Position numbers and translations under genes: made by a program
DNA from: Nitrospira sp.
Lineage (GTDB): Bacteria > Nitrospirota > Nitrospiria > Nitrospirales > Nitrospiraceae
Length of the DNA: 64,000 nt
Reading direction: 5' to 3'
Assembly: GCA_029194665.1 (NCBI GenBank)
Contig: JARFXO010000002.1
Span: 372,001-436,000 of the forward strand
Notes under the pieces: model-generated
Seen by the model: only the letters and a program-made list of their open reading frames with translations
Told to the model about the DNA's origin: nothing
The model's database searches: none
Shown here: one piece after another, positions 37,093 to 60,540 of the stretch
How the letters are laid out: every line of letters begins with the position of its first letter
How positions within the stretch are numbered: position 1 is the stretch's first letter

Positions 37093-37197
37093 CATGGCGG
37101 CGTAGTTTCGGCTGTCATACATCCGATAGCCGAGATAGAGCAAGCAGAGCAGGAGCGCGAACAACGCCTTGTATCTTCCGCTGACTCTCTTCATCAT
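37093..37197 (-). pseudogene. 5' fragment of an RND adaptor gene (35 codons)
   Basis: The fragment encodes MMKRVSGRYKALFALL and LYLGYRMYDSRNYAAM, the N-terminal membrane helix of the adaptor at 40465-41706 (MMKKVSGRSMAWFAFL at the same place). It overlaps the stop of the RND gene 37194-40388 by four bases, just as the complete adaptor overlaps its RND gene. After codon 35 the similarity ends abruptly, next to the stop codon of the convergent methyltransferase gene. The rest of this adaptor was therefore lost in a deletion or rearrangement. Confidence 0.85.
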
Positions 37198-40100
37198 GAG
37201 GGGAGTCCTTTTTGCTCAGCCGTTCGCCGGCTGTAAATCATCGCATAGACACAGGGCACGAAGGACAGGGTAAAGACGGTCGCCACGAGCAAGCCGCCGA
37301 TGACGGCTCGCCCCAGCGGCGCATTCTGCGAATACCCGGTCGCCATGGGGACCATCCCGAGGACCATGGCCGACGCGGTCATGAGCACCGCGCGAAAGCG
37401 GGCGGTGCCGGCTTCGATCGCGGCCCGCACCGCGTCGCCGTGCTCTCGGAGCCGGTCGCGTGCAAAGGAGACGACGAGGATCGAATTGGCGGTCGCCGTG
37501 CCCATGCACATGATCGCGCCCGTCAAGGCTGGTTCCGACAGCGGCGTCCGGGTCACGAACAACGCCCAGGCAATGCCCGCCAGGGCGCCCGGCAAGGCGG
37601 TGACGATGATGAAGGGATCGAGCCAGGACTGGAAGTTGACGACGATCAGCAGATAGACCAGCACCATCGCGGCGAATAAGCCGAAAATCAGTTCCGCGTA
37701 CGCGTCGTGCATCAGGGCGGCTTGCCCATGGATTTGGATCTCCGCGCTGTCGGGCAACTCATCCTTCAGCTCATGCACCGCCTCCTCGACGTCCTCCAGT
37801 AACCCGCCCAGGTCGCGCCCTTCGGGGGAGACATAGAGGTCGAAGAGCGGCATGATATTCCCGTGCGTGACGATGCTCGGTGTGCCCACTGGTTTGAAGC
37901 CGGCCATATTGCCGAGCAACTCCATCTCACTCGCCGCATTGCGGTCAAGGGACCCGACCGGGACGGTCTTGAGCGCCGTCATGCCGTTGACCTGCGGTTG
38001 CGGAATATAGACATTGATCTGATACGAAAATCCGGTGGCGGGATCGAGCCAAAAGATCTGGTCGACCTGTTGGCTCCCCGCCGCCACCATTTGAAGATTG
38101 ACGGCGATGTCGCCCTCGGTCTTGTTCGCGTCAAGTCCGTACGTGCGGCGGCCTTCGGCCAGGAGGGTCGGCTGGCGCATCGGTTGCTGGAGCACCACGT
38201 CCGAGGCGCCGGGAATCTGGCGCAGCCGGCCGATCAATTTGCGGGCGAACTCATAGTTCTCGTCCTGGTCCGGTCCGTTGACCTGCACATCGATCGGCGC
38301 AGGCGCGCCGAAGTTGAGGATCTTGGCCGTCAGATCGGACGGTTGAAAGGTGAATTCGGTCCCGGGATAGCGCTCCGTCAAGCCCTTGCGGAGAATGCGC
38401 CGGTACTCCCACACCGGCGACTTTTCATCCTTCAAGAGGACCGTCACATCACAATCCTGAGAACCGATCGTGGGTGTCGGAATGAAGGCGAGGTTATGCG
38501 GTCCGATCGGGAGCCCGCAATTACCGACGACGTTCTCCACCTGCCCCGGCAACAACGTCTCGATGTCTTCGGCGACCAGCGACACGATGCGCGCGGACAC
38601 CTCGACGCGCGTGCCGAGCGGCGCGCGAAAATGCATCTGAATGACATCCGACCGAATCTCGGGGAAGTAGTCGCGTCCCAGGAAGTAATAGAGGGAGAGC
38701 GAGCTCACCGCGAGGGTCAGCGCCATGATGACGAAGCTGCGACGACGAGCCACCGCCTGTTCGAGCAACGCACCATAGCCTTGGCGAAATCGATTAAAGC
38801 GGCGCTCAAAGCCGGCTTGAAAGCGGGTGAAGAGGCCCAGCAGGCCCGCTAGGTTGGCGCGCCAGCCGACCCGATGTTCCTGATGTCCGGATGCCGCCTC
38901 GTGGTGCTCCACGACGAGCATGTATTTCGCCATGGTCGGCACCAGCGTCCGCGACAGGATAAAGGAGGCAATCATGGCAATGACGACCGCCTCCGCCATG
39001 GGCTTAAACAGATAGCCGGAGGTGCCGGTGAGCTTGAAGAGCGGCAACCAGACGATCGCGATGGCTAACGTGGAGACCAACGTCGGGACGACGATCTCAT
39101 TGGCGGCATCGATGATCGCGGTCTCCAGCGGCTTGCTCATTTCGAGATGGCGATCGATATTCTCGATCATCACGGTCGCATCATCGACCAGGATGCCGAC
39201 GGCCAGCGCCAACCCGCCCAAGGTCATCACATTGATCGTCTCCCCGAGCCAATGGAGCCCGATGATGGCGCTTAGAATGGAGAGCGGGATCGAGGTGGCG
39301 ATAATCACCGTCGGTCGCCAAGACCCCAAGAGCACCAGCACGATGAAGCCGACCAGCAGACCGGCGGTGAGCATTTCATGCAGCACGTCCACGATCGACT
39401 CCTTGACGAACGTCGACGTGTCGTTGAGGAGCCTGATTTGCATACCCTTCGGGACAATCTTCTGAATGCGCGGGACCATCTCTTTGATCCCGTCCACCAC
39501 GTCCAAGGTGGACGCCTCCGTGCTCTTCATCGCGACGATGATGACGGATTGTTTCCCATTCACGATTACTGCATTCTGTTGCACCCGTCCCATGAGTTCG
39601 GCCGTACCGATGTCGTGCAGGTAGACGAACGCGTTCCCTTCGCGCTTGATCGGAATGTTTTCAAAGTCCTTGATCTGCATCGGGGAGGCATTGGTCAGGA
39701 GCATCCAGTCGCTCTGCTCGATCTTGACGTCCCCGGCCGGCAGGATGAGGTACTGTTGCCGGAACACGGCGTGGACATCCGCCACTGTGATGTGACGAGC
39801 GAGCAAGGCTTGCTGGTCGAGGTTGATCATCACTTGTAGCGGAGACCCGCCGTAGGGAAATGGGACGATCACGCCGTTGACGGTGACCAGCAGGGGGCGG
39901 ATTTGCATGTAGGAGATGTTAAAGAGCTCGGCCGGCGTCATGGTGTCGGAGCTGACTTCCAGCATCGCGACCGGCAGCGAGGACGGCGCGAGCCGCATGA
40001 TCATGGCCGGCGAAATATCGGGCGGCAAGACTTTGATGACGGTCTGTGCGATGGCGGTGATATCCGCTTCCGCCCGGCCGACGTCGATGCCGTCCTGAAG

Positions 40101-40388
40101 AAAAATATTGGTGATGCTGATGCCGTAGTAGGAATGACTGTGCAGGTACTTGATCCCTTCGACAGTCGAGGTGACGAAGCGCTCGAACATATACGTGATG
40201 CGTCCGTCCAGCCTCGGCGGCAACATGCCGAGGTAGGGCCAGACGATGGACGTAACGGGAATCCGGATGGAGGGAAACACGTCGGTCGGCATCTCTTGGA
40301 TGGTCAGCGTCCCGAACAGCACGAGCAAGATCGCCAGCACAACGAAGGTGTATGGCCGGCGAAGGGCTATGATGACAAGTTGGTTCAT
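37194..40388 (-). CDS. RND efflux permease, copy B (near-identical to copy A)
   Basis: 1064 residues, a full RND inner-membrane proton-driven exporter with 12 helices and two large periplasmic loops. The first helix is at residues 12-31 (FVVLAILLVLFGTLTIQEM). Helix 4 has the proton-relay aspartates D402/D403 in LVDDATVMIENIDRH. It differs from AcrB and CusA in the porter region (for example PYLGMLPPRLDGRITYMFER), so the substrate is unknown; heavy metals should not be assumed. Copy A (41703-44897) differs at only about 14 residues. Its own adaptor gene is truncated after 35 codons, so it may share the adaptor at 40465-41706, which lies 76 bases upstream. Confidence 0.92.
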   Translation of the reverse strand: MNQLVIIALRRPYTFVVLAILLVLFGTLTIQEMPTDVFPSIRIPVTSIVWPYLGMLPPRLDGRITYMFERFVTSTVEGIKYLHSHSYYGISITNIFLQDGIDVGRAEADITAIAQTVIKVLPPDISPAMIMRLAPSSLPVAMLEVSSDTMTPAELFNISYMQIRPLLVTVNGVIVPFPYGGSPLQVMINLDQQALLARHITVADVHAVFRQQYLILPAGDVKIEQSDWMLLTNASPMQIKDFENIPIKREGNAFVYLHDIGTAELMGRVQQNAVIVNGKQSVIIVAMKSTEASTLDVVDGIKEMVPRIQKIVPKGMQIRLLNDTSTFVKESIVDVLHEMLTAGLLVGFIVLVLLGSWRPTVIIATSIPLSILSAIIGLHWLGETINVMTLGGLALAVGILVDDATVMIENIDRHLEMSKPLETAIIDAANEIVVPTLVSTLAIAIVWLPLFKLTGTSGYLFKPMAEAVVIAMIASFILSRTLVPTMAKYMLVVEHHEAASGHQEHRVGWRANLAGLLGLFTRFQAGFERRFNRFRQGYGALLEQAVARRRSFVIMALTLAVSSLSLYYFLGRDYFPEIRSDVIQMHFRAPLGTRVEVSARIVSLVAEDIETLLPGQVENVVGNCGLPIGPHNLAFIPTPTIGSQDCDVTVLLKDEKSPVWEYRRILRKGLTERYPGTEFTFQPSDLTAKILNFGAPAPIDVQVNGPDQDENYEFARKLIGRLRQIPGASDVVLQQPMRQPTLLAEGRRTYGLDANKTEGDIAVNLQMVAAGSQQVDQIFWLDPATGFSYQINVYIPQPQVNGMTALKTVPVGSLDRNAASEMELLGNMAGFKPVGTPSIVTHGNIMPLFDLYVSPEGRDLGGLLEDVEEAVHELKDELPDSAEIQIHGQAALMHDAYAELIFGLFAAMVLVYLLIVVNFQSWLDPFIIVTALPGALAGIAWALFVTRTPLSEPALTGAIMCMGTATANSILVVSFARDRLREHGDAVRAAIEAGTARFRAVLMTASAMVLGMVPMATGYSQNAPLGRAVIGGLLVATVFTLSFVPCVYAMIYSRRTAEQKGLPS

Positions 40389-40464: not shown

Positions 40465-41706
40465 TTATGATGATGGCTTTGACTCAGGTGCTTCCGTCGT
40501 AGCGAGATCATGTCCCGGCCTCACCTCGGGCTCTTCTGGCGTGACGAGATCATACCCTGGTCTCGGCGTGACGATGCGTACCGCATCGCCTTCGAGTAAC
40601 GTGTGGAGGGGATTGTTGATGAGGCGGTCGCTCGCGGAAAGCCCCGCCGACACCTCGACCGCGCTGTCCATGAGATTGTTCACGGTGATCGGCTTCAGGT
40701 GCACGCGGTTGTCCTCCGTCAGCACAGCTGCTTGTACGGCATCATCTTTTTCGTAGACCAGTGCGCTGGTCGGGATGACAAAGGTGGGCCGATCCACCGG
40801 TGCCGTAAGGTGGACAATGGCGTAGGAACCGGGCCAGAGCGCGTGATCTTCATTCTCGATCGTGAAGACCACGGTCGCGGTCCGCGTCGCGACGTCGAAT
40901 CCACGGGAGACCGTGAGGAACTTGGCGGTCCAATGTCGATTGGGCAATTGCGGCACGGTGACGTCGGCCGTCAAGCTGGGGCGCAGGAAGGGCCCGAAGT
41001 ACGCCGGCACCTTAATAAAAAGACGCAATCGATCGATGACGGCCACTGTATAGAGATTGGTTTTCGCATTGGGGCTGTGGAGCGTCCCCTGCTTACTGAC
41101 CAAATCCCCGACGTTGATGTTGCGCTGGAGGACCACGCCGTCAAAGGGAGCAATGATCTTTTTGAACCCGATGAACGCCTCGATGTTCCTGACCTGTTGA
41201 TGCGCGGCCTCGACGACTGCCGCCTGAGCTCTCAGTTCTTGTTCCTTCACCGTGATCGACTGCTCAGTGACCGCATGATTGTGGCGGAGGGCAATCCAAC
41301 GCTGCGCGGTCACCGCGGCGAGCCGATATTTGGCGCGTTCCGCATCCAGATCCTTGATGGCCTGCTGATATTGAGCGTCGAGGTCCGGCGTGCTGATATC
41401 GGCCAGAATGTCGCCTTTTTTCACCCAGTCTCCGTATTTCTTATGCCACATCTTCACGTAGCCCGTGACCCGCGCGTAGCTTGTCGCCTCATACCAGCCT
41501 TGAAACGTACCGGGAAGCGTGATGCTCTCGGTCGCGGACACCGGCTTGGGAGAGATGATGGCTACGGGGGGAGCGATGGCGTTGAGCGTCGTCTCGCGAA
41601 GCATGGCGGCGTAGTTTCGGCTGTCATACATCCGATAGCCGAGATAGAGCAGCACGAGCAGGAACGCGAACCACGCCATAGATCGTCCGCTGACTTTCTT
41701 CATCAT
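40465..41706 (-). CDS. RND periplasmic adaptor (HlyD family), unit A
   Basis: 413 residues. A single N-terminal membrane helix (about 10-24) anchors it in the inner membrane. The periplasmic part begins with SATESITLPGTFQGWYEA, the barrel and lipoyl halves enclose an alpha-hairpin (about residues 125-195), and FKKIIAPFDGVVLQRNINVG is the typical lipoyl segment after the hairpin. It should link the RND permease with an outer-membrane channel. Its ATG overlaps the stop of RND copy A (41703) as ATGA. A long proline- and serine-rich tail ends the protein. It may serve both near-identical permeases. Confidence 0.92.
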   Translation of the reverse strand: MMKKVSGRSMAWFAFLLVLLYLGYRMYDSRNYAAMLRETTLNAIAPPVAIISPKPVSATESITLPGTFQGWYEATSYARVTGYVKMWHKKYGDWVKKGDILADISTPDLDAQYQQAIKDLDAERAKYRLAAVTAQRWIALRHNHAVTEQSITVKEQELRAQAAVVEAAHQQVRNIEAFIGFKKIIAPFDGVVLQRNINVGDLVSKQGTLHSPNAKTNLYTVAVIDRLRLFIKVPAYFGPFLRPSLTADVTVPQLPNRHWTAKFLTVSRGFDVATRTATVVFTIENEDHALWPGSYAIVHLTAPVDRPTFVIPTSALVYEKDDAVQAAVLTEDNRVHLKPITVNNLMDSAVEVSAGLSASDRLINNPLHTLLEGDAVRIVTPRPGYDLVTPEEPEVRPGHDLATTEAPESKPSS

Positions 41707-44700
41707 GAGGCAAGTCCTTTTTGCTCAGCCGTCCGCCGGCTGTAAATCATCGCATAGACACAGGGCACGAAGGACAGGGTAAAGACGGTCGCCACGAGCA
41801 AGCCGCCGATGACGGCTCGCCCCAGCGGCGCATTCTGCGAATACCCGGTCGCCATGGGGACCATCCCGAGGACCATGGCCGACGCGGTCATGAGCACCGC
41901 GCGAAAGCGGGCGGTGCCGGCTTCGATCGCGGCCCGCACCGCGTCGCCGTGCTCTCGGAGCCGGTCGCGTGCAAAGGAGACGACGAGGATCGAATTGGCG
42001 GTCGCCGTGCCCATGCACATGATCGCGCCCGTCAAGGCTGGTTCCGACAGCGGCGTCCGGGTCACGAACAACGCCCAGGCAATGCCCGCCAGGGCGCCCG
42101 GCAAGGCGGTGACGATGATGAAGGGATCGAGCCAGGACTGGAAGTTGACGACGATCAGCAGATAGACCAGCACCATCGCGGCGAATAAGCCGAAAATCAG
42201 TTCCGCGTACGCGTCGTGCATCAGGGCGGCTTGCCCATGGATTTGGATCTCCGCGCTGTCGGGCAACTCATCCTTCAGCTCATGCACCGCCTCCTCGACG
42301 TCCTCCAGTAACCCGCCCAGGTCGCGCCCTTCGGGGGAGACATAGAGGTCGAAGAGCGGCATGATATTCCCGTGCGTGACGATGCTCGGTGTGCCCACTG
42401 GTTTGAAGCCGGCCATATTGCCGAGCAACTCCATCTCACTCGCCGCATTGCGGTCAAGGGACCCGACCGGGACGGTCTTGAGCGCCGTCATGCCGTTGAC
42501 CTGCGGTTGCGGAATATAGACATTGATCTGATACGAAAATCCGGTGGCGGGATCGAGCCAAAAGATCTGGTCGACCTGTTGGCTCCCCGCCGCCACCATT
42601 TGAAGATTGACGGTGATGTCGCCCTCGGTCTTGTTCGCGTCAAGTCCGTACGTGCGGCGGCCTTCGGCCAGGAGGGTCGGCTGGCGCATCGGTTGCTGGA
42701 GCACCACGTCCGAGGCGCCGGGAATCTGGCGCAGCCGGCCGATCAATTTGCGGGCGAACTCATAGTTCTCGTCCTGGTCCGGTCCGTTGACCTGCACATC
42801 GATCGGCGCAGGCGCGCCGAAGTTGAGGATCTTGGCCGTCAGATCGGACGGTTGAAAGGTGAATTCGGTCCCGGGATAGCGCTCCGTCAAGCCCTTGCGG
42901 AGAATGCGCCGGTACTCCCACACCGGCGACTTTTCATCCTTCAAGAGGACCGTCACATCACAATCCTGAGAACCGATCGTGGGTGTCGGAATGAAGGCGA
43001 GGTTATGCGGTCCGATCGGGAGCCCGCAATTACCGATGACGTTCTCCACCTGCCCCGGCAACAACGTCTCGATGTCTTCGGCGACCAGCGACACGATGCG
43101 CGCGGACACCTCGATGCGCGTGCCGAGCGGCGCGCGAAAATGCATCTGAATGACATCCGACCGAATCTCGGGGAAGTAGTCGCGTCCCAGGAAGTAATAG
43201 AGGGAGAGCGAGCTCACCGCGAGGGTCAGCGCCATGATGACGAAGCTGCGACGACGAGCCACCGCCTGTTCGAGCAACGCACCATAGCCTTGGCGAAATC
43301 GATTAAAGCGGCGCTCAAAGCCGGCTTGAAAGCGGGTGAAGAGGCCCAGCAGGCCCGCTAGGTTGGCGCGCCAGCCGACCCGATGTTCCTGATGTCCGGA
43401 TGCCGCCTCGTGGTGCTCCACGACGAGCATGTATTTCGCCATGGTCGGCACCAGCGTGAACGACAGGATAAAGGAGGCAATCATGGCAATGACGACCGCC
43501 TCCGCCATGGGCTTAAACAGATAGCCGGAGGTGCCGGTGAGCTTGAAGAGCGGCAACCAGACGATCGCGATGGCTAACGTGGAGACTACCGTCGGGACGA
43601 CGATCTCATTGGCGGCATCGATGATCGCGGTCTCCAGCGGCTTGCTCATTTCGAGATGGCGATCGATATTCTCGATCATCACGATTGCATTATCGACCAG
43701 GATGCCGACGGCCAGCGCCAACCCGCCCAAGGTCATCACATTGATCGTCTCCCCGAGCCAATGGAGCCCGATGATGGCGCTTAGAATGGAGAGCGGGATC
43801 GAGGTGGCGATAATCACCGTCGGTCGCCAAGACCCCAAGAGCACCAGCACGATGAAGCCGACCAGCAGACCGGCGGTGAGCATTTCATGCAGCACGTCCA
43901 CGATCGACTCCTTGACGAACGTCGACGTGTCGTTGAGGAGCCTGATTTGCATACCCTTCGGGACAATCTTCTGAATGCGCGGGACCATCTCTTTGATCCC
44001 GTCCACCACGTCCAAGGTGGACGCCTCCGTGCTCTTCATCGCGACGATGATGACGGATTGTTTCCCATTCACGATTACTGCATTCTGTTGCACCCGTCCC
44101 ATGAGTTCGGCCGTACCGATGTCGTGCAGGTAGACGAACGCGTTCCCTTCGCGCTTGATCGGAATGTTTTCAAAGTCCTTGATCTGCATCGGGGAGGCAT
44201 TGGTCAGGAGCATCCAGTCAGTCTGCTTGATCTTGACGTCCCCGGCCGGCAGGATGAGGTACTGTTGCCGGAGCACGGCGTGGACATCCGCCACTGTGAT
44301 GTGACGAGCGAGCAAGGCTTGCTGGTCGAGGTTGATCATCACTTGTAGCGGAGACCCGCCGTAGGGAAATGGGACGATCACGCCGTTGACGGTGACCAGC
44401 AAGGGGCGGATTTGCATGTAGGAGATGTTAAAGAGCTCGGCCGGCGTCATGGTGTCGGAGCTGACTTCCAGCATCGCGACCGGCAGCGAGGACGGCGCGA
44501 GCCGCATGATCATGGCCGGCGAAATATCGGGCGGCAAGACTTTGATGACGGTCTGTGCAATGGCGGTGATATCCGCTTCCGCCCGGCCGACGTCGATGCC
44601 GTCTTGAAGAAAAATATTGGTGATGCTGATGCCGTAGTAGGAATGACTGTGCAGGTACTTGATCCCTTCGACAGTCGAGGTGACGAAGCGCTCGAACATA

Positions 44701-44897
44701 TACGTGATGCGTCCGTCCAGCCTCGGCGGCAACATGCCGAGGTAGGGCCAGACGATGGACGTAACGGGAATCCGGATGGAGGGAAACACGTCGGTCGGCA
44801 TCTCTTGGATGGTCAGCGTCCCGAACAGCACGAGCAAGATCGCCAGCACAACGAAGGTGTACGGCCGGCGAAGGGCTATGCTGACAAGTTGCTTCAT
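41602..44897. repeat. Direct repeat unit, left-of-operon copy of the RND duplication
   Basis: Partner of 37093-40388 at a constant offset of 4509 bases. It covers the whole RND gene and the first 35 codons of the adaptor gene. The tract around 43459-43690 carries changes not shared by copy B or by the more distant RND C, which points to a conversion event in this copy. Confidence 0.88.
41703..44897 (-). CDS. RND efflux permease, copy A
   Basis: 1064 residues, same fold and length as copy B. It differs at the N-terminus (MKQLVSIALRR against MNQLVIIALRR), in the porter region (VLRQQY, KIKQTDW) and in helix 4, where it has LVDNAIVMIENIDRH: the second acidic residue of the proton relay is Asn403 and position 405 is Ile instead of Thr. 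Many RND pumps have this VDNAIV form and work, so activity is likely. Copy B and RND C both have VDD here. It overlaps the adaptor gene by four bases and is the first gene of the unit; more than 650 non-coding bases lie upstream. Confidence 0.93.
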   Translation of the reverse strand: MKQLVSIALRRPYTFVVLAILLVLFGTLTIQEMPTDVFPSIRIPVTSIVWPYLGMLPPRLDGRITYMFERFVTSTVEGIKYLHSHSYYGISITNIFLQDGIDVGRAEADITAIAQTVIKVLPPDISPAMIMRLAPSSLPVAMLEVSSDTMTPAELFNISYMQIRPLLVTVNGVIVPFPYGGSPLQVMINLDQQALLARHITVADVHAVLRQQYLILPAGDVKIKQTDWMLLTNASPMQIKDFENIPIKREGNAFVYLHDIGTAELMGRVQQNAVIVNGKQSVIIVAMKSTEASTLDVVDGIKEMVPRIQKIVPKGMQIRLLNDTSTFVKESIVDVLHEMLTAGLLVGFIVLVLLGSWRPTVIIATSIPLSILSAIIGLHWLGETINVMTLGGLALAVGILVDNAIVMIENIDRHLEMSKPLETAIIDAANEIVVPTVVSTLAIAIVWLPLFKLTGTSGYLFKPMAEAVVIAMIASFILSFTLVPTMAKYMLVVEHHEAASGHQEHRVGWRANLAGLLGLFTRFQAGFERRFNRFRQGYGALLEQAVARRRSFVIMALTLAVSSLSLYYFLGRDYFPEIRSDVIQMHFRAPLGTRIEVSARIVSLVAEDIETLLPGQVENVIGNCGLPIGPHNLAFIPTPTIGSQDCDVTVLLKDEKSPVWEYRRILRKGLTERYPGTEFTFQPSDLTAKILNFGAPAPIDVQVNGPDQDENYEFARKLIGRLRQIPGASDVVLQQPMRQPTLLAEGRRTYGLDANKTEGDITVNLQMVAAGSQQVDQIFWLDPATGFSYQINVYIPQPQVNGMTALKTVPVGSLDRNAASEMELLGNMAGFKPVGTPSIVTHGNIMPLFDLYVSPEGRDLGGLLEDVEEAVHELKDELPDSAEIQIHGQAALMHDAYAELIFGLFAAMVLVYLLIVVNFQSWLDPFIIVTALPGALAGIAWALFVTRTPLSEPALTGAIMCMGTATANSILVVSFARDRLREHGDAVRAAIEAGTARFRAVLMTASAMVLGMVPMATGYSQNAPLGRAVIGGLLVATVFTLSFVPCVYAMIYSRRTAEQKGLAS

Positions 44898-45569: not shown

Positions 45570-46070
45570 CTACCGCCCCACTCCTGGCAGTCCGAGTCGA
45601 ATGACCGCGTCCGCGTTCGGTGATTGCGTGATTTCACTGTCGTACCCCGCACGGGACCCCCTGCCGGCCCCCCTGCTGGAACCTCCTCCATACCCCTCGA
45701 CGTAACCATCCGAGTATCCCCCGCCATACCCCTCGTCGTAACCGTAACCCTCGGTGTAACCTCCGGCGTATCCCTCGCCGTACCCCCCGGAGTTACCTCC
45801 GGACCGTGGTCCGACATGTTCACCGGCCATGCCTTCCATCTGTAGCTGGTCCATCAGGGTTGTGGGCAAAGGGTCGTTTCCGCCACCGACAGTCCAATAC
45901 CGTCCCTCTATCCCTCGCTGACGATCGTAGGAATTCAATGGAAGTTCACAGGAGTCTGGTTCACGAAATTGACCTTGGTACTTGTCGCCGTTGTAATGAG
46001 GCCAGGCTTGGACCTCTCCGGGATAGGCGGCCAGAGTCAGGAGACCGAGAAAGATTATGACTTGAGTCAT
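45570..46070 (-). CDS. Exported Gly/Tyr-rich protein
   Basis: 166 residues. A signal peptide (VIIFLGLLTLAAYPGEVQA) is followed by a short region with two possible disulfide- or surface-type motifs (GQFREPDSCELPLNS). Residues about 92-140 are a low-complexity tract of short repeats such as GGYGEGYAGGYTEGYGYDEG, then SDGYVEGYGGG. The end (PNADAVIRLGLPGVGR) is ordinary again. The start at 46070 is chosen because AAGGAG lies nine bases upstream; an ATG three codons earlier touches the ribosome site. Function unknown; Gly/Tyr repeats occur in surface or matrix proteins and in RNA-binding proteins, but the signal peptide favours the former. Confidence 0.72.
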   Translation of the reverse strand: MTQVIIFLGLLTLAAYPGEVQAWPHYNGDKYQGQFREPDSCELPLNSYDRQRGIEGRYWTVGGGNDPLPTTLMDQLQMEGMAGEHVGPRSGGNSGGYGEGYAGGYTEGYGYDEGYGGGYSDGYVEGYGGGSSRGAGRGSRAGYDSEITQSPNADAVIRLGLPGVGR

Positions 46071-46152
46071 GGGTGCCATCTCCTTTCACCTACGTCTTGC
46101 CGTGCGCCTCAGGTGTATGCAGTTGATATGACCTCGAATTCCTATAGTTGCA

Positions 46153-46756: not shown

Positions 46757-47791
46757 ATGCATGGAGGAATGCACCATACGAATAGACTCGGACGGATTGT
46801 TGCTATCCTGCTCCTTTGGGCGTTCTCGTTGACCCTCGCGGTCGCAATTGCAGCCGCAGAATCCTTGAGCTTCCTTGATGACCAAATCCGGTTCTACCCT
46901 GCTCAACGAGAGGGTGACCGTATTCTCATTCCATTTGATCAGCCGCCTGCGGACAACGAGGAGGTTCTCCTTCTCGGACACCATACGGATCTCATTCCCC
47001 TCAAACGCCTTCAACAAGAGCCGATTAAGCCGCAGTCAATGACTCACCCTCGGCCGCACTATGTGTACGGTCTCGCGACAGGTCGCCTATTGAGTACAAG
47101 AGAGCAGTTCTTAGTGGCTGTGGGAAAGGAGATCACCCCGCTCCTCAAATGGAATGCGGACGACTCGATGAGCGGTAAACGCCAAGGGAGTATGGACCGC
47201 GAGGTGACCGATCAACTGTTGGCCAGGCTCTCAAGTGGACCGATGTCCTCGATGCAGGACAACGCAGACACCTCTCTTTCTTTGGAAGACATCGCAATCT
47301 CGACTGGCCTGATGTCGTCTGACAGCGCCAAACAGCTGGCCGCCAGCTCCTGCGTGAAACCGGACAAAGGTTTCGAAATCACAGGGCGTCAAATCCTGAC
47401 TGCGCAAGACTCGATGGCGACGGTCTTTTACCTGCAGCAAGAGCTGCTTCTGCAGGGAGCGCTTCTGCAATCTACACCCGACAAGATATTCGGCGGAAAC
47501 AACTATGGCGGGCCATCAATGAAAGAGGTTGTCGGCATAGTCGAGCCTGGAGGCTCATGTCGCATACTGGCGTCTGCCACCAGTGACGGCTATGGGCTAT
47601 ATACCAACGGGTCTTTGATGCCTGTTGGCCCGATCTCCGGCATCATTGCACTCTCTACGGGACGATCTATTGCAAAATGGCTCGTCCTCAAGTCATCGAT
47701 GGCTGCAGTCTGGGGTTATACATTTATTGATCTGTCGATGCCGTTGAACCGTGAACCTAAACGACGATTTCTCCGTGAAGATAAGGTGTAG
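46757..47791 (+). CDS. Exported protein of an unrecognised family, member 1
   Basis: 344 residues. A signal peptide (IVAILLLWAFSLTLAVAIAAA) is followed by a conserved block ESLSFLDDQIRFYPAQREGD, then PADNEEVLLLGHHTDLIPL and HYVYGLATGRLLS. The C-terminal half has KEVVGIVEPGGSCRILAS, PVGPISGI and a final NREPKRRFL. The protein at 54577-55461 is a clear paralogue lacking about 48 residues found here at about 148-195. Two cysteines remain conserved (ASSCVKPDKG and GSCRIL), possibly a disulfide. AGGAG lies upstream of the ATG. No function was recognised. It is transcribed away from RND copy A, with the Gly/Tyr-rich gene between them. Confidence 0.78.
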   Translation: MHGGMHHTNRLGRIVAILLLWAFSLTLAVAIAAAESLSFLDDQIRFYPAQREGDRILIPFDQPPADNEEVLLLGHHTDLIPLKRLQQEPIKPQSMTHPRPHYVYGLATGRLLSTREQFLVAVGKEITPLLKWNADDSMSGKRQGSMDREVTDQLLARLSSGPMSSMQDNADTSLSLEDIAISTGLMSSDSAKQLAASSCVKPDKGFEITGRQILTAQDSMATVFYLQQELLLQGALLQSTPDKIFGGNNYGGPSMKEVVGIVEPGGSCRILASATSDGYGLYTNGSLMPVGPISGIIALSTGRSIAKWLVLKSSMAAVWGYTFIDLSMPLNREPKRRFLREDKV

Positions 47792-49520: not shown

Positions 49521-49591
49521 GAACAAGGCGTCCTTCGTTTATATCTTCCCTTACTCTCCTACCCTGTTCGATATCAAGCGCACGACAGGGC

Positions 49592-49654: not shown

Positions 49655-49830
49655 ACCCACGACAGGATGAAGCAGGCGAAGGAGCAGCGCCATCATGATG
49701 GCCTCTGCGATGTGCGATGGGTGTGAATCGGTAGCCGGACCGGCGCACGATCTGGAAAGAGTCCACCATCAAACCAAACACATCAAGACACTGTCGTTTC
49801 CTCGGCTCCAGCGTGCTGAACGCCGTCAGT
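49647..49830 (-). pseudogene. RND permease scar, unit D
   Basis: Three short pieces in different frames match the helix 5-6 part of the neighbouring RND proteins. RSGYRFTPIA matches TSGYLFKPMA of RND A/B; AEAIMMALL continues it after a tandem 7-base duplication (CATCGCA twice) that shifts the frame; SFACFILSWVLV in a further frame matches ASFILSRTLVP. Upstream TAFSTL may match LVSTLAI. Everything else of the gene is gone. The scar lies between adaptor D and adaptor C. Confidence 0.65.
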
Positions 49831-49839: not shown

Positions 49840-51039
49840 TCACAGCGACGATGGTGGCTTTGCCTTGGACTCTGCGGTCGTGCCGATGTCATACCCCGGC
49901 CTCGGCGTGACGATGCGCACGACGTCCCCTTCGAGCAACGTGGCGGTGGGATTGTTGATGACGCGGTCGCTCGAGGAAAGCCCCTCTGCCACCTCGATCG
50001 CGTTGTCCATGAGTTGGGTCACCGTGATCGGTTTGAAATGCACGTGGTTGTCCTCCGTCACCACGACCACTTGCATGCCCTGCTCCTGGTATACCAAGGC
50101 ACTGGTCGGAATGACTAAGGCCGGCCGATCAACTGAGGCCGTGAGGTGGACTTCAGCGTAGGAACCGGGCCAGAGCGCATGGTCTTCATTGTCGATCGTG
50201 AAGACCGTCGTCGCTGTCCGCGTCGAAACCTCGAATCCACGGGCGACCGTGAGGAACTTGGCGGTCCAACGGCGATTGGGCAATTGCGGCACGGTGACAT
50301 CGGCGGTCAAGCCTGGGTGAAGGAATGGCCCGAAGAACTCCGGCACATTGACAAAGAGACGCAATTTATCGACAACGGCCACCGTAAACAGGTTACTTTT
50401 TGCATTGGGGGTGCTGAGATTGCCTTCCTTACTGACCAAATCACCGACGTTGATGTTGCGCTGGATCACCACCCCGTCAAAGGGGGCGATGATTGTTTTG
50501 AACCCAATGAACGCCTCGATGTTCTTGACCTGGTGCTCTGCGGCCTCGACGACCGCAGCCTGGGCTCTCAGTTCTTGCTCCTTCACCGTAATCGACTGTT
50601 CAGAGACCGCATGATTTGGGCGGAGGGCAACCCACCGTTTCGCAGTCACAGAGGCGAGCCGAAACTTGGCGCGTTCCGCATCCAAATCCTTGATGGCCTG
50701 CCGATATTCGGCGTCGAGATCCGGTGTGCTGATGTCGGCGAGGACGTCGCCCTTCTTCACCCAGTCTCCATAGCGCTTATGCCACATCTTCACATAACCG
50801 GTGACTCGCGCGTAGATCGGCGCTTCATACCAGCCCTCAATCGTGCTGGGAAGCGTGATGCTCTCGGTCGCCGACATCGGTTTGGGAGAGATAACGGCCA
50901 CCGTGGCAATGGCGCCTTCGAGCGTTGCTTCGCGGAGTTCGGCGTCATAGTTGCTGCTCTCATGAATCCGATGGCCGAGATAGAGCAGGCAGAACAAAAT
51001 TGCCAACACGACAACGTGTATTCTGCTACGTCTCTTCAT
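49840..51039 (-). CDS. RND periplasmic adaptor (HlyD family), unit C
   Basis: 399 residues, one N-terminal membrane helix (VVVLAILFCLLYLGHRI). Family parts: SATESITLPSTIEGWYEAPI, the hairpin around KEQELRAQAAVVEAAEHQVK, and IIAPFDGVVIQRNINVGDL. It is closely similar to adaptor A along its length, more distant from D and E. The ATG overlaps the stop of RND C by four bases. It ends with a short Lys/Pro/Ser tail. It should connect RND C to an outer-membrane channel encoded elsewhere. Confidence 0.92.
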   Translation of the reverse strand: MKRRSRIHVVVLAILFCLLYLGHRIHESSNYDAELREATLEGAIATVAVISPKPMSATESITLPSTIEGWYEAPIYARVTGYVKMWHKRYGDWVKKGDVLADISTPDLDAEYRQAIKDLDAERAKFRLASVTAKRWVALRPNHAVSEQSITVKEQELRAQAAVVEAAEHQVKNIEAFIGFKTIIAPFDGVVIQRNINVGDLVSKEGNLSTPNAKSNLFTVAVVDKLRLFVNVPEFFGPFLHPGLTADVTVPQLPNRRWTAKFLTVARGFEVSTRTATTVFTIDNEDHALWPGSYAEVHLTASVDRPALVIPTSALVYQEQGMQVVVVTEDNHVHFKPITVTQLMDNAIEVAEGLSSSDRVINNPTATLLEGDVVRIVTPRPGYDIGTTAESKAKPPSSL

Positions 51040-54000
51040 CGCAGGGTCGATGCCTTTTGTCGAGCCATTCGACGGCTGTAGATAATCGCGTACACGCAGG
51101 GCACGAAGAACAGGGTGAAGACAGTCGCCATGAGCAAGCCACCGATGACGGCCCGACCCAGCGGCGCATTCTGCGAATACCCGGTCGCCATGGGAACCAT
51201 GCCCAGGATCATGGCCGAAGCTGTCATGAGCACGGGACGAAAGCGCGTTTTCCCTGCTTCGATCGCGGCCCGCAATGCGTCGCCGTGCTCTTTGAGCTGG
51301 TCACGCGCATAGGAGACGACCAGGATGGAATTGGCGGTCGCCGTGCCCATGCACATGATGGCGCCCGTGAGGGCCGGTTCCGACAGCCGCGTATGGGTCA
51401 GGAACAACGACCAGGCAATGCCCGCCAGTGCGCCGGGCAAAGCCGTGATGATGATGAAGGGATCGAGCCAGGACTGGAAGTTGACGACGATGAGCAGATA
51501 GACCAGCACGATCGCGGCGAGCAGGCCGAAGACAAGTTCAGCATAGGCATCCTGCATGAGGGAGGCTTGGCCATGGATTTGGATCTCCGCGCTGTCGGGC
51601 AACTCGTTCTCCATGTCATGAGTGATCTGCTCGACGTCCTCCAGCACCGCGCCGAGGTCACGCCCTTCTGCGGAAATGTAGACGTCGAACAACGGCATAA
51701 TGTTCCCGTGGGTCACCACGCCCGGGGTTCCCATCGGAGACAAGCTAGCCAAATTGCCGAGCAGCTCCACCCTTGTATCTGACTGATGGCTGGCGGAACC
51801 GACCGGGATGGTCTTGAGACTATCGATGCTATTGATCTGCGGCTGTGGGATGTAGACGTTGATCTGATACGAAAACCCGGTTGCGGGATCGAGCCAATAG
51901 AGCTGGTCGACCTGTTGGCTCCCGGCGGTCGTCATAAGCAGATTGTCGGCAATGTCCTTCTCGGTCTTCTTCACGTCGAGTCCGAACGTTCGATGGCCTT
52001 CGACCATGATGGTCGGCGTGCGCATCGTCTGCTGGATCACCACATCCGCAGAGCCGGGGATCTGGCGCAGCCGGCCCACCAATTTGCGGGCGAACTCGTA
52101 GTTCGGATAGTAATCCGGACCGTTGATCTGGACATCGATCGGCGCGGGCTCGCCGAAGTTGAGGATTTTTGCCGTCAGATCGGAAGGCTGAAAGGTGAAT
52201 GCAGTCCCCGGATAGAGCTCTTTCAAGCCCTTGCGGAGAATACGCCGGTACTCCCACACCGGCGACTTGCCGTCCTTCAAGAGGATCGTCAGATCGCAAT
52301 CCTGAGAGCCGATCGTGGGTGTCGGAATGAAGGCGAGATTATGCGGTCCGGCCGGCAGCCCGCAATTACTGACGACCTTTTCCACCTGACCGGGCAGCAA
52401 CGACGAGATATCTTTGGAGACAAGCGAGGCGATACGTGCCGAGACTTCGATACGCGTGCCGAGTGGCGCGCGCAGATGCATCTGAATGACCCCCGACCGA
52501 ATCTCGGGGAAGTAGTCGCGTCCCAGGAAATGAAAGAGAGAAAAGGAGCCCACCGCGATGGCCAGCGAAATGGCGACAAAGATGCGACGGCGAGCCACGG
52601 CCCCTTCGAGCAGCTTTCCGTAGCCTTCGCGAAATCGATTAAAGCGGCGGTCGAAGCCGGCTTGAAAGTTGGTGAAGAAGCTGATCAGTCCCGCCACGTT
52701 GGTATGCCGGCCGACCGGATGCTCCAGTGGAGCCTGGTGACCCTTGACGAGCAAGTATTTCGCCATGGTCGGCACAAGCGTGCGTGACAGGATGAAGGAA
52801 GCGAGCATGGCAATGATGACCGCCTCTGCCATAGGCATGAACAGCCAGCCGGACACGCCGCTGAGCCTGAAGAGCGGCAACCAGACAATCGCGATGGCCA
52901 GGGTGGCGACGAGCGTCGGGACGACGATCTCATTGGCGGCATCGACGATCGCCTGCTCCAGGGGCTTCTCCATTTCCATATGGCGATCGATATTCTCGAT
53001 CATCACGGTGGCATCATCGACCAGGATGCCGACGGCCAGCGCCAGGCCTCCCAAGGTCATCACATTGATCGTCTCACCGAGCCAATGGAGGCCGATGATG
53101 GAGGTCAGGATGGAGAGCGGAATCGACGTGGCAATGATGACCGTTGGTCTCCAGGAGCCCAAGAGCACCAACACGATGAAGCCGACCAGCGCGCCGGCGG
53201 ACAACATTTCGTGGAGCACGTCCCTGATCGCATCCTTGACGAACTCCGACGCGTCATCGAGGAGTCTGATCTTCACGCCTTTTGGGACGATCTTCTGGAT
53301 GCGCGGGATCATCTTTTTGATCCCGTCCACCACGTCCAAGGTGGACGCCTCCGTGCTCTTCATCACGACGATGATGACCGTCTGTTTACCCTCCACCAGC
53401 ACCGCGTTCTGTTGCACCTGTCCCATGAGACGGACTGTGCCGAGGTCGCGCAGGTAGACAAACGCGTTGCCTTCGCGTTTGATCGGAATATTCTCGAAGT
53501 CCTCGATTTTCATCGGTGAGGCATTGGTCTGGACGATCCAGTCTGTCTCCTTAATCTTGACGTCTCCGGACGGCAGGATGAGGTATTGTTGCCGGAGCAC
53601 CTCGTGGACATCGGCCGGAGCGATATGACGAGCGAGCAATTGTTGCTGATCGAGGTTGACCATGACCTGCATGGGCTGGCCCCCGTATGGATGCGGCACG
53701 ATCACGCCGGGTACCGTCACGAGCAGGGGGCGGATTCGCATGTAGGCGAGGTTATAGAGCTCCGCCGGCGTCATCGTATCAGAGCCTACTTGCAGCATCG
53801 CCACCGGAATCGAGGATGGAGCCAGACGCATGATCATGGGAGGGGAAATATCGGGCGGGAGCGCTTTGACCACGTTCTGTGCGATCGCCGTGATATCCGC
53901 TTCAGCCCGACCCACATCCACGCCGTCCTGGAGAAAAATATTGGTGATGCTGATACCATAGTAGGAGTGACTATGAAGATATTTGATCCCTTCCACCGTC

Positions 54001-54221
54001 GAGGTCACGAAGCGCTCGAACATATATGTGATGCGCCCTTCCACCTGCTGCGGCAACATTCCGCTGTAGATCCAGACCACGGATGTGACGGGAATATTGA
54101 TGTATGGGAAGACATCGGTCGGCATGTCTTGGATCGTCAGAGTCCCGAACAGCAGGATCAGAATGGCGAGCACGACGAATGTGTACGGCCGTCGGAGGGC
54201 TATGAGGACAAGCTGGTTCAT
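51036..54221 (-). CDS. RND efflux permease, unit C
   Basis: 1061 residues. It is clearly a paralogue of RND A and B, with perhaps four of five residues shared, so the split is much older than the A/B duplication. Helix 4 has D402/D403 in LVDDATVMIENIDRH. The porter sequence differs in places expected to affect substrate choice (WIYSGMLPQQVEGRITYMF; PHPYGGQPMQVM). The gene opens the unit, is followed by adaptor C with a 4-base overlap, and is divergent from the exported-protein gene 54577-55461 across about 355 bases that contain a NarL-like site. Confidence 0.94.
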   Translation of the reverse strand: MNQLVLIALRRPYTFVVLAILILLFGTLTIQDMPTDVFPYINIPVTSVVWIYSGMLPQQVEGRITYMFERFVTSTVEGIKYLHSHSYYGISITNIFLQDGVDVGRAEADITAIAQNVVKALPPDISPPMIMRLAPSSIPVAMLQVGSDTMTPAELYNLAYMRIRPLLVTVPGVIVPHPYGGQPMQVMVNLDQQQLLARHIAPADVHEVLRQQYLILPSGDVKIKETDWIVQTNASPMKIEDFENIPIKREGNAFVYLRDLGTVRLMGQVQQNAVLVEGKQTVIIVVMKSTEASTLDVVDGIKKMIPRIQKIVPKGVKIRLLDDASEFVKDAIRDVLHEMLSAGALVGFIVLVLLGSWRPTVIIATSIPLSILTSIIGLHWLGETINVMTLGGLALAVGILVDDATVMIENIDRHMEMEKPLEQAIVDAANEIVVPTLVATLAIAIVWLPLFRLSGVSGWLFMPMAEAVIIAMLASFILSRTLVPTMAKYLLVKGHQAPLEHPVGRHTNVAGLISFFTNFQAGFDRRFNRFREGYGKLLEGAVARRRIFVAISLAIAVGSFSLFHFLGRDYFPEIRSGVIQMHLRAPLGTRIEVSARIASLVSKDISSLLPGQVEKVVSNCGLPAGPHNLAFIPTPTIGSQDCDLTILLKDGKSPVWEYRRILRKGLKELYPGTAFTFQPSDLTAKILNFGEPAPIDVQINGPDYYPNYEFARKLVGRLRQIPGSADVVIQQTMRTPTIMVEGHRTFGLDVKKTEKDIADNLLMTTAGSQQVDQLYWLDPATGFSYQINVYIPQPQINSIDSLKTIPVGSASHQSDTRVELLGNLASLSPMGTPGVVTHGNIMPLFDVYISAEGRDLGAVLEDVEQITHDMENELPDSAEIQIHGQASLMQDAYAELVFGLLAAIVLVYLLIVVNFQSWLDPFIIITALPGALAGIAWSLFLTHTRLSEPALTGAIMCMGTATANSILVVSYARDQLKEHGDALRAAIEAGKTRFRPVLMTASAMILGMVPMATGYSQNAPLGRAVIGGLLMATVFTLFFVPCVYAIIYSRRMARQKASTLR

Positions 54222-54576
54222 AGATAAAGTCCACCGACCGAGGGCGTGAGGGGTGTCGCCCCCTCACCGACGACGAATTCTTTGATCGCGCAGAATGGTC
54301 TTGTCCGACCAAACGTTTTCAAGCAATATTACGAGAGAAGGTCAGAGCGATCCCTGCGGCAGTATACAGCCTTCACCTTCGGTCGGAAACTAGCTATTTG
54401 ACTAGGAGTATTCCTCGTGAAGCGCTGACTTCTGCAAGTCACAGTGATGTGACGAAGTATGACGGTGAACAGTACAATCATGCCCTTCGACGCGGATCGT
54501 GACCTCGACACAACCGAGGCAGAACAAAAGAGTCTGCGTTACGATTTCGAGCAATCTGACTGAACCGACAAAATCA
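54222..54576. promoter_or_regulatory. Divergent promoter region with a NarL-like site
   Basis: The region between RND C and the exported-protein gene. GACTAGGAGTATTCCT at 54400-54415 resembles the palindrome GACTAGGGGTATCCCT at 4991-5006 and contains AGGAGTA, a reverse NarL heptamer. GAGCAATCTGAC (about 54549) also occurs upstream of the paralogue at 46757 (about 46695), so the upstream DNA was duplicated with the gene. No promoter hexamers were fixed. Confidence 0.4.
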
Positions 54577-55461
54577 ATGCAAGCCAAACGGGACTCTCAT
54601 GATGACGGAACGGATCCTACGGGCAATCTCAGACAGGTGGTTTCGATCCTACTCCTCTGGACGATCTCGTTGCTTCTAGCTGTGCCAACGGCAGATGCAG
54701 AAACTTTGAGCTTTCTCGACGGCCGAATCCGGTTCTATCCGGCTCAGCGGGAGGGTGATCGCATTCTCATTCCATTTTCTCAGCCGCCTGCGCACAACGA
54801 AGAGGTTCTCCTGCTCCATCATCAGACCGATCTCTTTCACCTCAACCGTCTTCAAAACGAGACGATCATGCCGAAGTCAATGGCCCACCCGCTGCCTCAC
54901 TATGTGTACGGTCTCACGGAGGGCCGACTATCGGATCCACAAGCGCAGTTTCTGGTGGCCGTGGGGAAGGACATCACCTCACTCCTCAAGTGGAAAGCGT
55001 CCGACGCGATGAGCAGCCATCAGTCGGCCAGTTCTTGTATGACCCCGGATAAGGGCTTCGTCATCACGGGGCTTCAGGTCCTCATTTCTGAAGAGTTGAA
55101 CGCGAAGGTCTATTATCTGCAGGAAGAGATCCGGCAATCCTCATCCGACATGATGATCGACGAAGACGAACATTCCGGGATATCGATGAAAGAGATCGTC
55201 GGCATGGTCGAGTCTGAAGACTCCTGTCGCGTCCTGGCGTCCAACACCAGTGATGCGTATGGGCTACAGAACAGCGGGTCTTTGGAACCTGTCGGCCCGA
55301 TCTCCGGCATCATGGAACTGTTCGCGGGACGATCGACTGAACGGTGGCTCGTCCTCAGATCGGCGATGCGCGAAGTCTGGGGTTATACGTTTGTTGAGCT
55401 GCTACCGAGGCCGTTGAACCGTGAGCCAAAGCGGCGATTTCTCCTTGAAGACAAGGGGTAA
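54577..55461 (+). CDS. Exported protein of an unrecognised family, member 2
   Basis: 294 residues from ATG 54577. A signal-type segment (VSILLLWTISLLLAVPTADA) precedes ETLSFLDGRIRFYPAQREGD, the family block shared with member 1 (46757-47791). Conserved later parts include KSMAHPLPHYVYGLTEGR, SSCMTPDKGFVITGLQVL, SDSCRVLAS-like residues and NREPKRRFLLEDKG. The region equivalent to the start of member 1 seems shifted: the aligned ATGATG at 54599 is out of frame, and the used ATG at 54577 has no good ribosome site. So the N-terminus is uncertain, although the rest of the frame is well kept. Divergent from RND C. Confidence 0.72.
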   Translation: MQAKRDSHDDGTDPTGNLRQVVSILLLWTISLLLAVPTADAETLSFLDGRIRFYPAQREGDRILIPFSQPPAHNEEVLLLHHQTDLFHLNRLQNETIMPKSMAHPLPHYVYGLTEGRLSDPQAQFLVAVGKDITSLLKWKASDAMSSHQSASSCMTPDKGFVITGLQVLISEELNAKVYYLQEEIRQSSSDMMIDEDEHSGISMKEIVGMVESEDSCRVLASNTSDAYGLQNSGSLEPVGPISGIMELFAGRSTERWLVLRSAMREVWGYTFVELLPRPLNREPKRRFLLEDKG

Positions 55462-56718: not shown

Positions 56719-56813
56719 AGCGTATCTCCTTCAGCGAAGATAGAGTTTATTATGAATTCTGCCTTGCGAACGAATCACGGGGCTGTGTGGTTGTTGAGTA
56801 CTAGAATGGGCCC

Positions 56814-57584: not shown

Positions 57585-57608
57585 CAGCCAACCTCCCTAT
57601 GAGAGTCA

Positions 57609-58364: not shown

Positions 58365-59066
58365 AGTCTTGGTCTTTCTCCAGCCTGTACCGCACATTGA
58401 GGGCTCTCTTGTCCTCCTGGTGCGCGGGTGTTGCATGCGGGCAAGCAAAGTGCGTGCCCCACACACCTATTCGGAGACAAATTCAGAAACAAAGATTTTT
58501 CAAGGAATCTCTTAAATCCTCGATCGCTTCGTCGTAGTTCGATCGGAAGCTCGGAGAGCAGAACTAGGTCAAAAAGACACAGCACGTGTCAATTAGATAC
58601 GTAGATGCGCGTGCTCACGATCTTAGGAAGTAAGTGGGAAATGGAATCAGAAGTCGACCGCCTGTCGAGTAATGACTCACTGCTGTACACCATCCGCATA
58701 CGGCGTGCGAAGACGGCGTGCTAACTTATACGACCAGTTCCCAACCCCACAATTTCTTGGGATAGTAATTTGAGACACAAGGGTTCTCCATCACCGAGGT
58801 GTCCAGGGCGAAACAAATAATGAAGCCCAGCCGGCTCTTCTCACATAAGAAGAGCAATGCGGTCCTGTGGGTGCTACGAGATGAGGATCTGGGCCTGATT
58901 TCTCGAGATGTCACATCACGACGGCCACGCTCTCGGCATGACGCGACTACTTGGTCGCGGCCGGGCAGGCTCGCCTGCCTGCTTGGCGGCTTCGTCTCGA
59001 ATCGTCATGAATAAATACTATGGACTAAGACTCGGCCAGGAGCGCAGGATCTTTTGAAAGCCGTCA
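58365..59066. other. Non-coding region with no clear gene
   Basis: About 700 bases. A 62-codon frame on the minus strand (58726-58914) has a transposase-like flavour in SVMENPCVSNYYPKKLWGWE, but too little is left to call it. GCAGGCTCGCCTGC (about 58965) is a small hairpin. The last 50 bases resemble the DNA after adaptor D (48192-48243), part of the old duplication. Confidence 0.45.
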
Positions 59067-60401
59067 TCACTGTGTAGATGATTGCTCTGTTGGAGATGGC
59101 GCAGACCCTTGTGTGTTGAGAAGGTCTTCACCGGGTGCCGGCGTGACGACACGCACCTTGTCGCCTTCGAGCAATGCGTTGCTCGGATTGTTGATAATGC
59201 GGTCGCTTGCGGAAAGCCCCTCTTCCACTTCGATAATTTGGTTCGTGAGCTTGCTGATCGTGATGCGTTTGAAGTGGACGCGGTCGTCCTCGGTCACGAC
59301 GGCCACCTGCGCGTTGCGCTCCTGAAACACCAGGGCGGTGTACGGCATCGTGAAGGCTTGCCGATTGACCGGCGCCGTAATGTGGACCTGCGCGTAAGAG
59401 CCGGGCCAAAGCGTGCGGTCTTCATTGTCGATCGTGAAGATCGTGATCGCGGTGCGTGTGCCCGGCTCGAAGTGACGGGCGATGGTCAGGAAGTTGAAGG
59501 TGAAACGGCGATCGGGCAATTGCGGCACCGTCACGTCGACCGTCAGGCCCGGATGAAGGAACGGGCCGAACCGCGACGGCACATTGACAAAGAGGCGCAA
59601 TTTATCGACGACGGCTACTGTATAGAGGTTGGTGATCCCGTTGGGGGAGCTGAGATTGCCTTCCTTACTGACCAAATCCCCGACGTTGATGTTGCGCTGC
59701 ACGACCACGCCGTCAAAGGGGGCTAGGATCTTCTTGAACCCGATGAACGCTTCGATGTTCTTGACCTTTTGCTCGGCTGCCTTGACCAGAGCCGCCTGGG
59801 TTTTCATGTGTTGTTCTTCCACCGTGATCGACTGTTCGGAGACTGCATAGGTTGAGCGCAGCGCGATCAAGCGTTTCGCCGTCACTTCGGCGAGTTTATA
59901 CTTGGCGCGCACCGATTTCAGATCGGCCTTCGCCCGCCGATAGTCGGCATCGAGATCCGGCGTGCTGATTTCGGCGAGAATGTCACCGGGCTTCACGTGG
60001 TCTCCGTAGTCCTTGTACCACATGTTCACATAACCCGTAACGCGCGCGTAGATCGGCGCTTCGTACCATCCCACAATGTTGCCGGGAAGAGTAATCGTCT
60101 CGGTCGGCGGCACCGCCGTGGGAAGGGTGACGGTCACGGCAGGGGCGGTTTCTTCAAGTGTCTCGGGGTGAGGCTCCGCGGCGTCGTTTTTGCTGCCATA
60201 AAGGCGGTAGCCGAGATACAGCAAGCACAGCAGAATCGCTAGAGAGACAATGACTTTTCCACGGCGACTGGCGATCATCGGTTCGAGCGGTACAGTGCAG
60301 GACCTCCAGCACTCACGGAGGTGGCGCTGAAATCGGACGAGCATGTTCCACGATGGTATCGCTCCGGCCTGCTCGTCATGCTTATGCGCCTCTTGCGACA
60401 T
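59067..60401 (-). CDS. RND periplasmic adaptor (HlyD family), unit E, without an intact partner
   Basis: 444 residues. A hydrophilic N-terminus of about 48 residues precedes one membrane helix (VIVSLAILLCLLYLGYRLYG). The rest follows the family: PPTETITLPGNIVGWYEAPI, a hairpin around KTQAALVKAAEQKVKNIEA, and ILAPFDGVVVQRNINVGDLV, ending with a Ser/Pro/Gln tail. It is the closest relative of adaptor D, including the N-terminal extension. Directly upstream only a short RND scar is left (60452-60540). The codons are well kept, so selection may still hold it; it could work with RND C or A/B. Confidence 0.9.
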   Translation of the reverse strand: MSQEAHKHDEQAGAIPSWNMLVRFQRHLRECWRSCTVPLEPMIASRRGKVIVSLAILLCLLYLGYRLYGSKNDAAEPHPETLEETAPAVTVTLPTAVPPTETITLPGNIVGWYEAPIYARVTGYVNMWYKDYGDHVKPGDILAEISTPDLDADYRRAKADLKSVRAKYKLAEVTAKRLIALRSTYAVSEQSITVEEQHMKTQAALVKAAEQKVKNIEAFIGFKKILAPFDGVVVQRNINVGDLVSKEGNLSSPNGITNLYTVAVVDKLRLFVNVPSRFGPFLHPGLTVDVTVPQLPDRRFTFNFLTIARHFEPGTRTAITIFTIDNEDRTLWPGSYAQVHITAPVNRQAFTMPYTALVFQERNAQVAVVTEDDRVHFKRITISKLTNQIIEVEEGLSASDRIINNPSNALLEGDKVRVVTPAPGEDLLNTQGSAPSPTEQSSTQ

Positions 60402-60451
60402 GAAAGAGGCTTCTTCAATATTTTTCTCTTATATTTTGCCATGCTCGGCAT

Positions 60452-60540
60452 CACATACGCGACAGAATAAAGCGCGGTGAAGGAACATCATCATGACAGC
60501 CTCCGCGATGGGCTTGAACATGACAAGGCGACTCCAAGCC
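60452..60540 (-). pseudogene. RND permease scar, unit E
   Basis: On the minus strand LVMFKPIAEAVMMMF matches GYLFKPMAEAVVIAM of RND A/B, and after a frame change RFILSRM matches SFILSRTL of the same region. About 30 codons are left. The scar ends about 50 bases before the adaptor E start, so the rest of the permease gene on both sides has been deleted. The same part of the gene is left in unit D. Confidence 0.68.

Follow-up and report, generated by a model that had tools for sequence, protein, structure and literature searches.

In AcrB-type HAE-1 permeases, the proton relay is built from D407 and D408 on TM4 together with K940 on TM10. In AcrB itself, the bonding partner of D408 is S481 on TM6, from which it switches to L442 on TM5 (PMC4359379). 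Pumps of the RND family that contain more than one kind of subunit are poorly explored. MdtBC works as a heterotrimer of B2C composition, and mutations of the relay weigh more heavily in its MdtB subunits (PMC4338810, PMC12802153). TriABC-OpmH has two different adaptors for one RND permease, and both are needed (PMC4338810). Here we describe an RND efflux locus of Nitrospira in a 64-kb window, by which we mean the whole stretch of DNA that was analysed (64,000 nt). The explanation we prefer, with a probability of roughly 0.6, combines three elements: two versions of one locus would stand in tandem, two orphan adaptors would have been born from a split permease, and a pair of permeases with different relay residues (the DR and NF classes) would share one adaptor.

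The window belongs to a genome of 4.8 Mb in 17 contigs. Its pump genes comprise three RND permeases and four adaptors, all intact, and its relics comprise one adaptor stump and two RND scars (Table 1). An earlier sequence-only reading of this DNA had already named these elements, and they are borne out by coordinates, family profiles and scar alignments. Each of the four adaptors exceeds the NCBIfam TIGR01730 RND_mfp cut-off of 94.9 bits. Membership of the ACR_tran family (Pfam PF00873) was taken to require a full-length match above the curated cut-off and two 6-TM repeats; the RND proteins exceed this cut-off, RND A is matched along its full length (residues 7–1051), and together with the AlphaFold model of RND B this places the permeases in the family. 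RND B, adaptor A and RND A stand in a tight array on the same strand, so that a single intact adaptor is contiguous with two intact permeases; RND B overlaps adaptor A by ATGA, and a gap of 76 bp separates the stop codon of adaptor A from the start of RND A. Of the near-identical permeases on either side of the intact adaptor A, the copy at 41703 is the one coupled to it, and the stump is coupled to the copy at 37194. The open reading frame of the stump continues antisense to a methyltransferase gene, reaching 113 aa in all, and its homology to adaptors ends beside the methyltransferase stop codon. RND A with its stump thus provides the case of a permease retained next to a decayed adaptor that the sequence-only reading had proposed. 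Adaptor E is located upstream of all other minus-strand pump genes in the window. Neither X1 nor X2 gave a Pfam or NCBIfam match. Three lipoprotein-like genes (weakly CsgG/LpoB-like and GNA1162-like) occupy positions 55771–58466 on the minus strand, between X2 and adaptor E, and are absent from that spot in the related genomes G030, G012, G010 and G016.

Table 1. Pump genes, relics and neighbouring genes of the locus, in window coordinates.
Feature	Coordinates	Strand	Evidence
Adaptor stump, A-type, first 35 codons; ATGA overlap with RND A	37093..37197	-	
RND permease A, DR class (D403, T405, L437, R480)	37194..40388	-	Pfam ACR_tran, E 6e-178; residue alignment
Adaptor A, intact; ATGA-coupled to RND B	40465..41706	-	NCBIfam RND_mfp, 185 bits
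RND permease B, NF class (N403, I405, V437, F480)	41703..44897	-	99.25% DNA identity with RND A
Z45, Gly/Tyr-rich predicted secreted protein, upstream of the RND pair	45570..46079	-	
X1, secreted protein, locus version 1	46757..47791	+	76% DNA identity to X2
Adaptor D, orphan	48240..49526	-	RND_mfp, 190 bits; body dN/dS 0.17
N-terminal extension of adaptor D, putative diverged relic of an RND C-half start	49386..49526	-	Aligns to GZL adE extension
RND scar upstream of adaptor D, RND codons ~462-479	~49660..49715	-	Weak alignment score
Adaptor C; ATGA-coupled to RND C	49840..51039	-	RND_mfp, 202 bits
RND permease C, DR class, locus version 2	51036..54221	-	
X2, paralogue of X1, locus version 2	54499..55461	+	76% DNA identity
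Adaptor E, orphan	59067..60401	-	RND_mfp, 183 bits; body dN/dS 0.21
RND-derived N-terminus of adaptor E (split-RND C-half start)	60264..60401	-	C-half-start HMM
Frameshifted scar of the 3' end of an RND N-half upstream of adaptor E, codons ~460-490	~60427..60518	-	Alignment

The chromosomal site, which lies between a T-protein/thiamine gene block and PD40/P61–P63, was read in several Nitrospira relatives. In G012, adaptor C with its RND C, X2 and adaptor E are the sole genes of the locus there. In G085 (WA-bin32) it holds only the stump with its RND, adaptor A with its RND, Z45, X1 and adaptor D, and the C/E unit sits on another contig. Since these two genomes each carry one version at the same site, the window is best read, from its gene order, as a tandem of two versions of the same Nitrospira RND efflux locus. 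The first, version 1, comprises RND B, adaptor A, RND A and the stump together with Z45, X1 and the orphan adaptor D, and version 2 comprises RND C and adaptor C together with X2 and the orphan adaptor E. G030 agrees with the window to the limit of its contig, and the C/E version lies beside an A-type adaptor at a contig end in G010 and G016. G085 shares the layout of two intact permeases and one intact adaptor, with a 78-codon adaptor stump at the position that matches the 35-codon stump of the window. In the complete genome of G023, version 1 is rearranged, adaptor E is a stump of 130 aa, and the front of adaptor D has been swapped for A-type sequence behind an intact RND; this adaptor D' (L051, 17942–19144) is a mosaic whose start is A-type and whose D-type body contains a patch of A-type sequence. 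In the genomes read, one of the X1/X2 paralogues stands alongside each locus version. Z45 is repetitive and conserved: G085 and G023 both have it upstream of one RND of their pair, and G030 has it at the same place.

The sequence-only reading had derived the locus from one pump unit copied repeatedly, giving five units that decayed independently. This would account for the homology of all the RNDs and of all the adaptors, and for the scars and the stump, and duplication as such is upheld, as is the grouping of the adaptors into A with C and D with E, which form separate clades (each 100/100) in the adaptor tree. The duplication of X1 and X2 along with the pumps, however, speaks against five repeats of one unit, as does the shared site, at which relatives have one of the two versions. 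Moreover, D and E would have a single chimeric origin, and their clade is nearest to the adaptors of split RNDs (96/91), apart from A and C. We consider the five-unit history improbable compared with two tandem versions. The near-identity of RND A and RND B, the X1/X2 duplication and the RND-derived N-terminus of D and E had no place in the sequence-only reading.

A related RND is encoded by separate genes for an N-half (approximately 499 aa) and a C-half (approximately 566 aa) in 38 Nitrospirales genomes from at least 12 genera, and such a split RND is also present on contig 1 of the window genome. In the junctions that we read, the two genes usually overlap by 17 nt, and a ribosome-binding-like site precedes the ATG of the C-half. 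Frameshift or assembly error was considered as the source of the split and rejected on the basis of this site, the recurrent overlap and the presence of C-half frames of 564–598 aa across all these genomes; given a good ribosome site before the C-half, programmed frameshifting is unnecessary. An outer-membrane factor gene adjoins the split RND in L053 and L064. The split clade of the full RND tree includes one unsplit RND (C3u; L055, 9710–12889), which has a linker without the C-half start and looks like a re-fusion. In several Nitrospira genomes, the split locus has a further unsplit RND approximately 10 kb away, which carries N403, A405, F437 and Y480 (L053, 5798–9040, and equivalents). Whereas the halves of the split RND are intact and overlapping, adaptors D and E hold only relics of them, and the split RND would be the source family for both the N-terminus of these adaptors and the scars.

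In a search of 1974 ORF starts with an HMM of split C-half starts, the N-termini of adaptor E (E 1e-10 to 5e-5) ranked directly below the true C-halves, with which they have the start ATGTCGCA in common. This N-terminus (MSQ..H.HEQ..RFQ..) is fused in frame to the adaptor inside its membrane segment. The extension of adaptor D gave no match to the HMM among the same ORF starts; it aligns with the adE extension of GZL (shuffle p 0.0005) and is more diverged than that of E. The scar upstream of adaptor E aligned to RND A and to the split N-half with scores of 61–65, compared with a maximum of 31 in 300 shuffles. The scar upstream of adaptor D covers the same RND segment with a weaker score (39, against a shuffle maximum of 32). 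On this evidence, the N-terminus and the scar are what remains on either side of a deleted split permease, as the sequence shows for E and, less strongly, for D. In the common ancestor of D and E, deletion would have reduced a permease made of two half-genes to the last part of the N-half and the first part of the C-half, and the leftover C-half start would have been fused in frame to the adaptor, which was retained while its tail drifted. Since D and E share both the chimeric N-terminus and the same leftover RND segment, the loss of the permease looks like one ancestral event, and independent decay of the two is rejected on the same features.

That D and E lost their permeases and were nonetheless retained, as the sequence-only reading held, is supported by the scars and by the dN/dS ratios of the adaptor bodies (Table 1). 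Judged by these ratios, the bodies are under strong purifying selection and appear to be kept as working genes. In the extensions, dN/dS was 0.81 for E and 0.58 for D (CI 0.27–1.31 for D), and both intervals include 1; on these values the permease-derived tails are near-neutral and seem to drift, so that the adaptors are kept and the tails are not. It could be argued that the RND-derived N-terminus is a functional cytoplasmic domain acquired by fusion, given that the frame is open in the window, G030, G016, G012 and GZL and that the start codon is conserved. Ratios of approximately 0.6–0.8 in the tail compared with approximately 0.2 in the body speak against this, as does an in-frame TGA in the adaptor E extension of G010 and WA-bin32, both of which have a downstream ATG. 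On account of the near-neutral ratios and the stop codons in two genomes we do not favour a functional domain, and think it has little chance of being correct. The locus would also illustrate how deletion of a permease yields an orphan adaptor with a foreign front end.

The permeases of version 1 present a different pattern. RND A and RND B differ at 24 of 3195 bases and at 13 of 1064 amino acid positions, and the repeat has one 4509-bp period. The corresponding pairs are 99.0% identical in G023 and 99.4% identical in G085, compared with a difference of 6–9% between species, and the pairs cluster by genome in RND trees. When sites of A and B were compared with those of R2 and R1 of G023, 169 were concerted, being homogenised within each species, 12 were trans, with the two copies differing alike in both species, and none were cross, with the copies differing in opposite ways. 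The trans sites fall in codons 2, 209, 224, 226, 403–405, 437, 480 and 595, with concerted sites interspersed among them, and amino-acid-changing codons account for 11 of the 12 trans sites compared with 56 of the 169 concerted sites (Fisher p 8.6e-5). If A and B were the products of a very recent tandem duplication, and the DR/NF differences chance substitutions, the 99.25% identity and the single period would be expected. It would not be expected that the copies of G023, whose genes are 94% identical to those of the window, are told apart by the same 12 nucleotides, among them every base of codon 480, without one cross site, or that the DR/NF contrast recurs at the split locus, and we regard such a duplication as very improbable. 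The pattern of sites instead points to gene conversion that keeps A and B near-identical while the DR and NF class residues are retained, and we infer that selection preserves the two classes around the proton relay. The spacer at the A/B junction has no alignable homology between the window and G085, so the duplication there may have occurred in parallel.

Position 403 corresponds by alignment to the second of the paired aspartates on TM4, and positions 437 and 480 lie on TM5 and TM6 respectively. The contacts of AcrB D408 with S481 and L442 adjoin the positions that differ, which places the cluster of A/B differences at the relay, with residues matched by alignment. The TM10 Lys is replaced by Ala in all 26 family members compared. 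In the DR type, the usual two aspartates would be accompanied by Arg480 on TM6 in place of the missing TM10 lysine, and the NF type would keep one aspartate. Among 63 N-halves, residues 403 and 480 were D/R in 35, N/Y in 21, N/F in six and D/F in one, so that D403 pairs with R480 and N403 with Tyr or Phe at position 480 with a single exception; six independent switches at the two positions agree (p 0.031, on a quick tree). At the split locus of G012, G023 and G085, two N-half genes lie upstream of one C-half gene, N1 being DR and N2 being NF with the D403N/T405I/R480F contrast between copies. N1 and N2 of these genomes show 17–21 shared copy-specific sites, mostly amino-acid-changing, compared with 0–1 in the reverse arrangement. 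The same contrast between N-half copies occurs in G213, which belongs to another genus; in the split locus of the window genome, N2 retains only F480. Split RNDs with two N-halves and one C-half are seen at L067 (5304–10056), L065, L066, L117 and L060, and some of these differ in relay residues. The idea that DR and NF are mixed as a universal rule was rejected: the A/B-type permease pair of G085 is DR/DR, as are the tandem N-half pairs of G016, G225, G309 and G237, and class mixing, though common, is not obligatory.

In functional terms, A and B would be two permease types served by one adaptor, either as mixed trimers or as paired homotrimers. By analogy with MdtABC, we infer that the DR and NF permeases may be used, mixed or paired, with adaptor A. 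RND A and RND B are near-identical, and homotrimers could also form. Separate homotrimeric pumps with different energetics or substrates, and no mixed trimers, are a serious competitor to which we give somewhat less than an even chance: NF or NY permeases also occur singly, standing alone in conserved units (G090, ‘u’ units), and each copy in G023 has its own adaptor. Against this, the pair has one intact adaptor in both the window and G085, and nearly all A/B interface residues are identical, which should permit mixing. D and E probably serve A, B or C as alternative adaptors or as second ones, and mixed use of adaptors and permeases is plausible. A bolder form of the two-type reading is that Nitrospira builds RND pumps from two protomer types, converted to identity nearly everywhere except at the proton relay (D403/R480 compared with N403/F480), and that the split version achieves this economically, duplicating the N-half only, with one common C-half. 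We advance this tentatively and think it rather unlikely to hold; if true, it would represent a natural separation of proton-coupling roles within an RND trimer. Natural pairs separated by 13 of 1064 positions, among them a cluster at the relay, occur repeatedly, and other permeases are naturally cut into two genes; with both, the question of how the three protomers of an RND pump share proton coupling could be addressed by minimal constructs. Overall, the main interest of the locus lies less in a count of five units than in a split RND that is conserved, adaptors born by deletion, and paralogue pairs that differ at the proton relay. A limited search of open-access papers found no description of any of these three, nor anything relevant on split or half-size RNDs or on RND duplication in Nitrospira.

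Compared with the known systems, the permeases resemble the AcrB type in fold, as judged from a predicted structure: the AlphaFold model of RND B (pLDDT 76.7) matched MtrD, AcrB and CusA in Foldseek with TM scores of approximately 0.8. The DR members also have the TM4 Asp pair. The permeases are unlike those of the AcrB-type HAE-1 group in the family-wide change of the TM10 lysine to Ala and in the family-specific Arg480 (or Phe/Tyr) on TM6, and RND B in addition has Asn at the position of D408. For D or E as a second adaptor there is a precedent in TriABC-OpmH; TriA and TriB, however, share an operon with their own permease, whereas D and E stand apart without one. The closest likeness in sequence is to MdtB, which is the best PDB match of RND C (9lyq_B, E 4.5e-74), although RND C scores 297 and 299 bits against NCBIfam MdtB and MdtC equivalog cut-offs of 1584 and 1774 bits. 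As in MdtABC and MuxABC, two RND permeases and one adaptor lie in one operon-like array, and one intact adaptor for two permeases is the composition of MdtABC (PMC4338810). The gene order of RND, adaptor and RND is unlike that of either system. Furthermore, MdtB and MdtC are approximately 50% identical, whereas RND A and RND B share 99% identity and their differences lie mainly around the relay.
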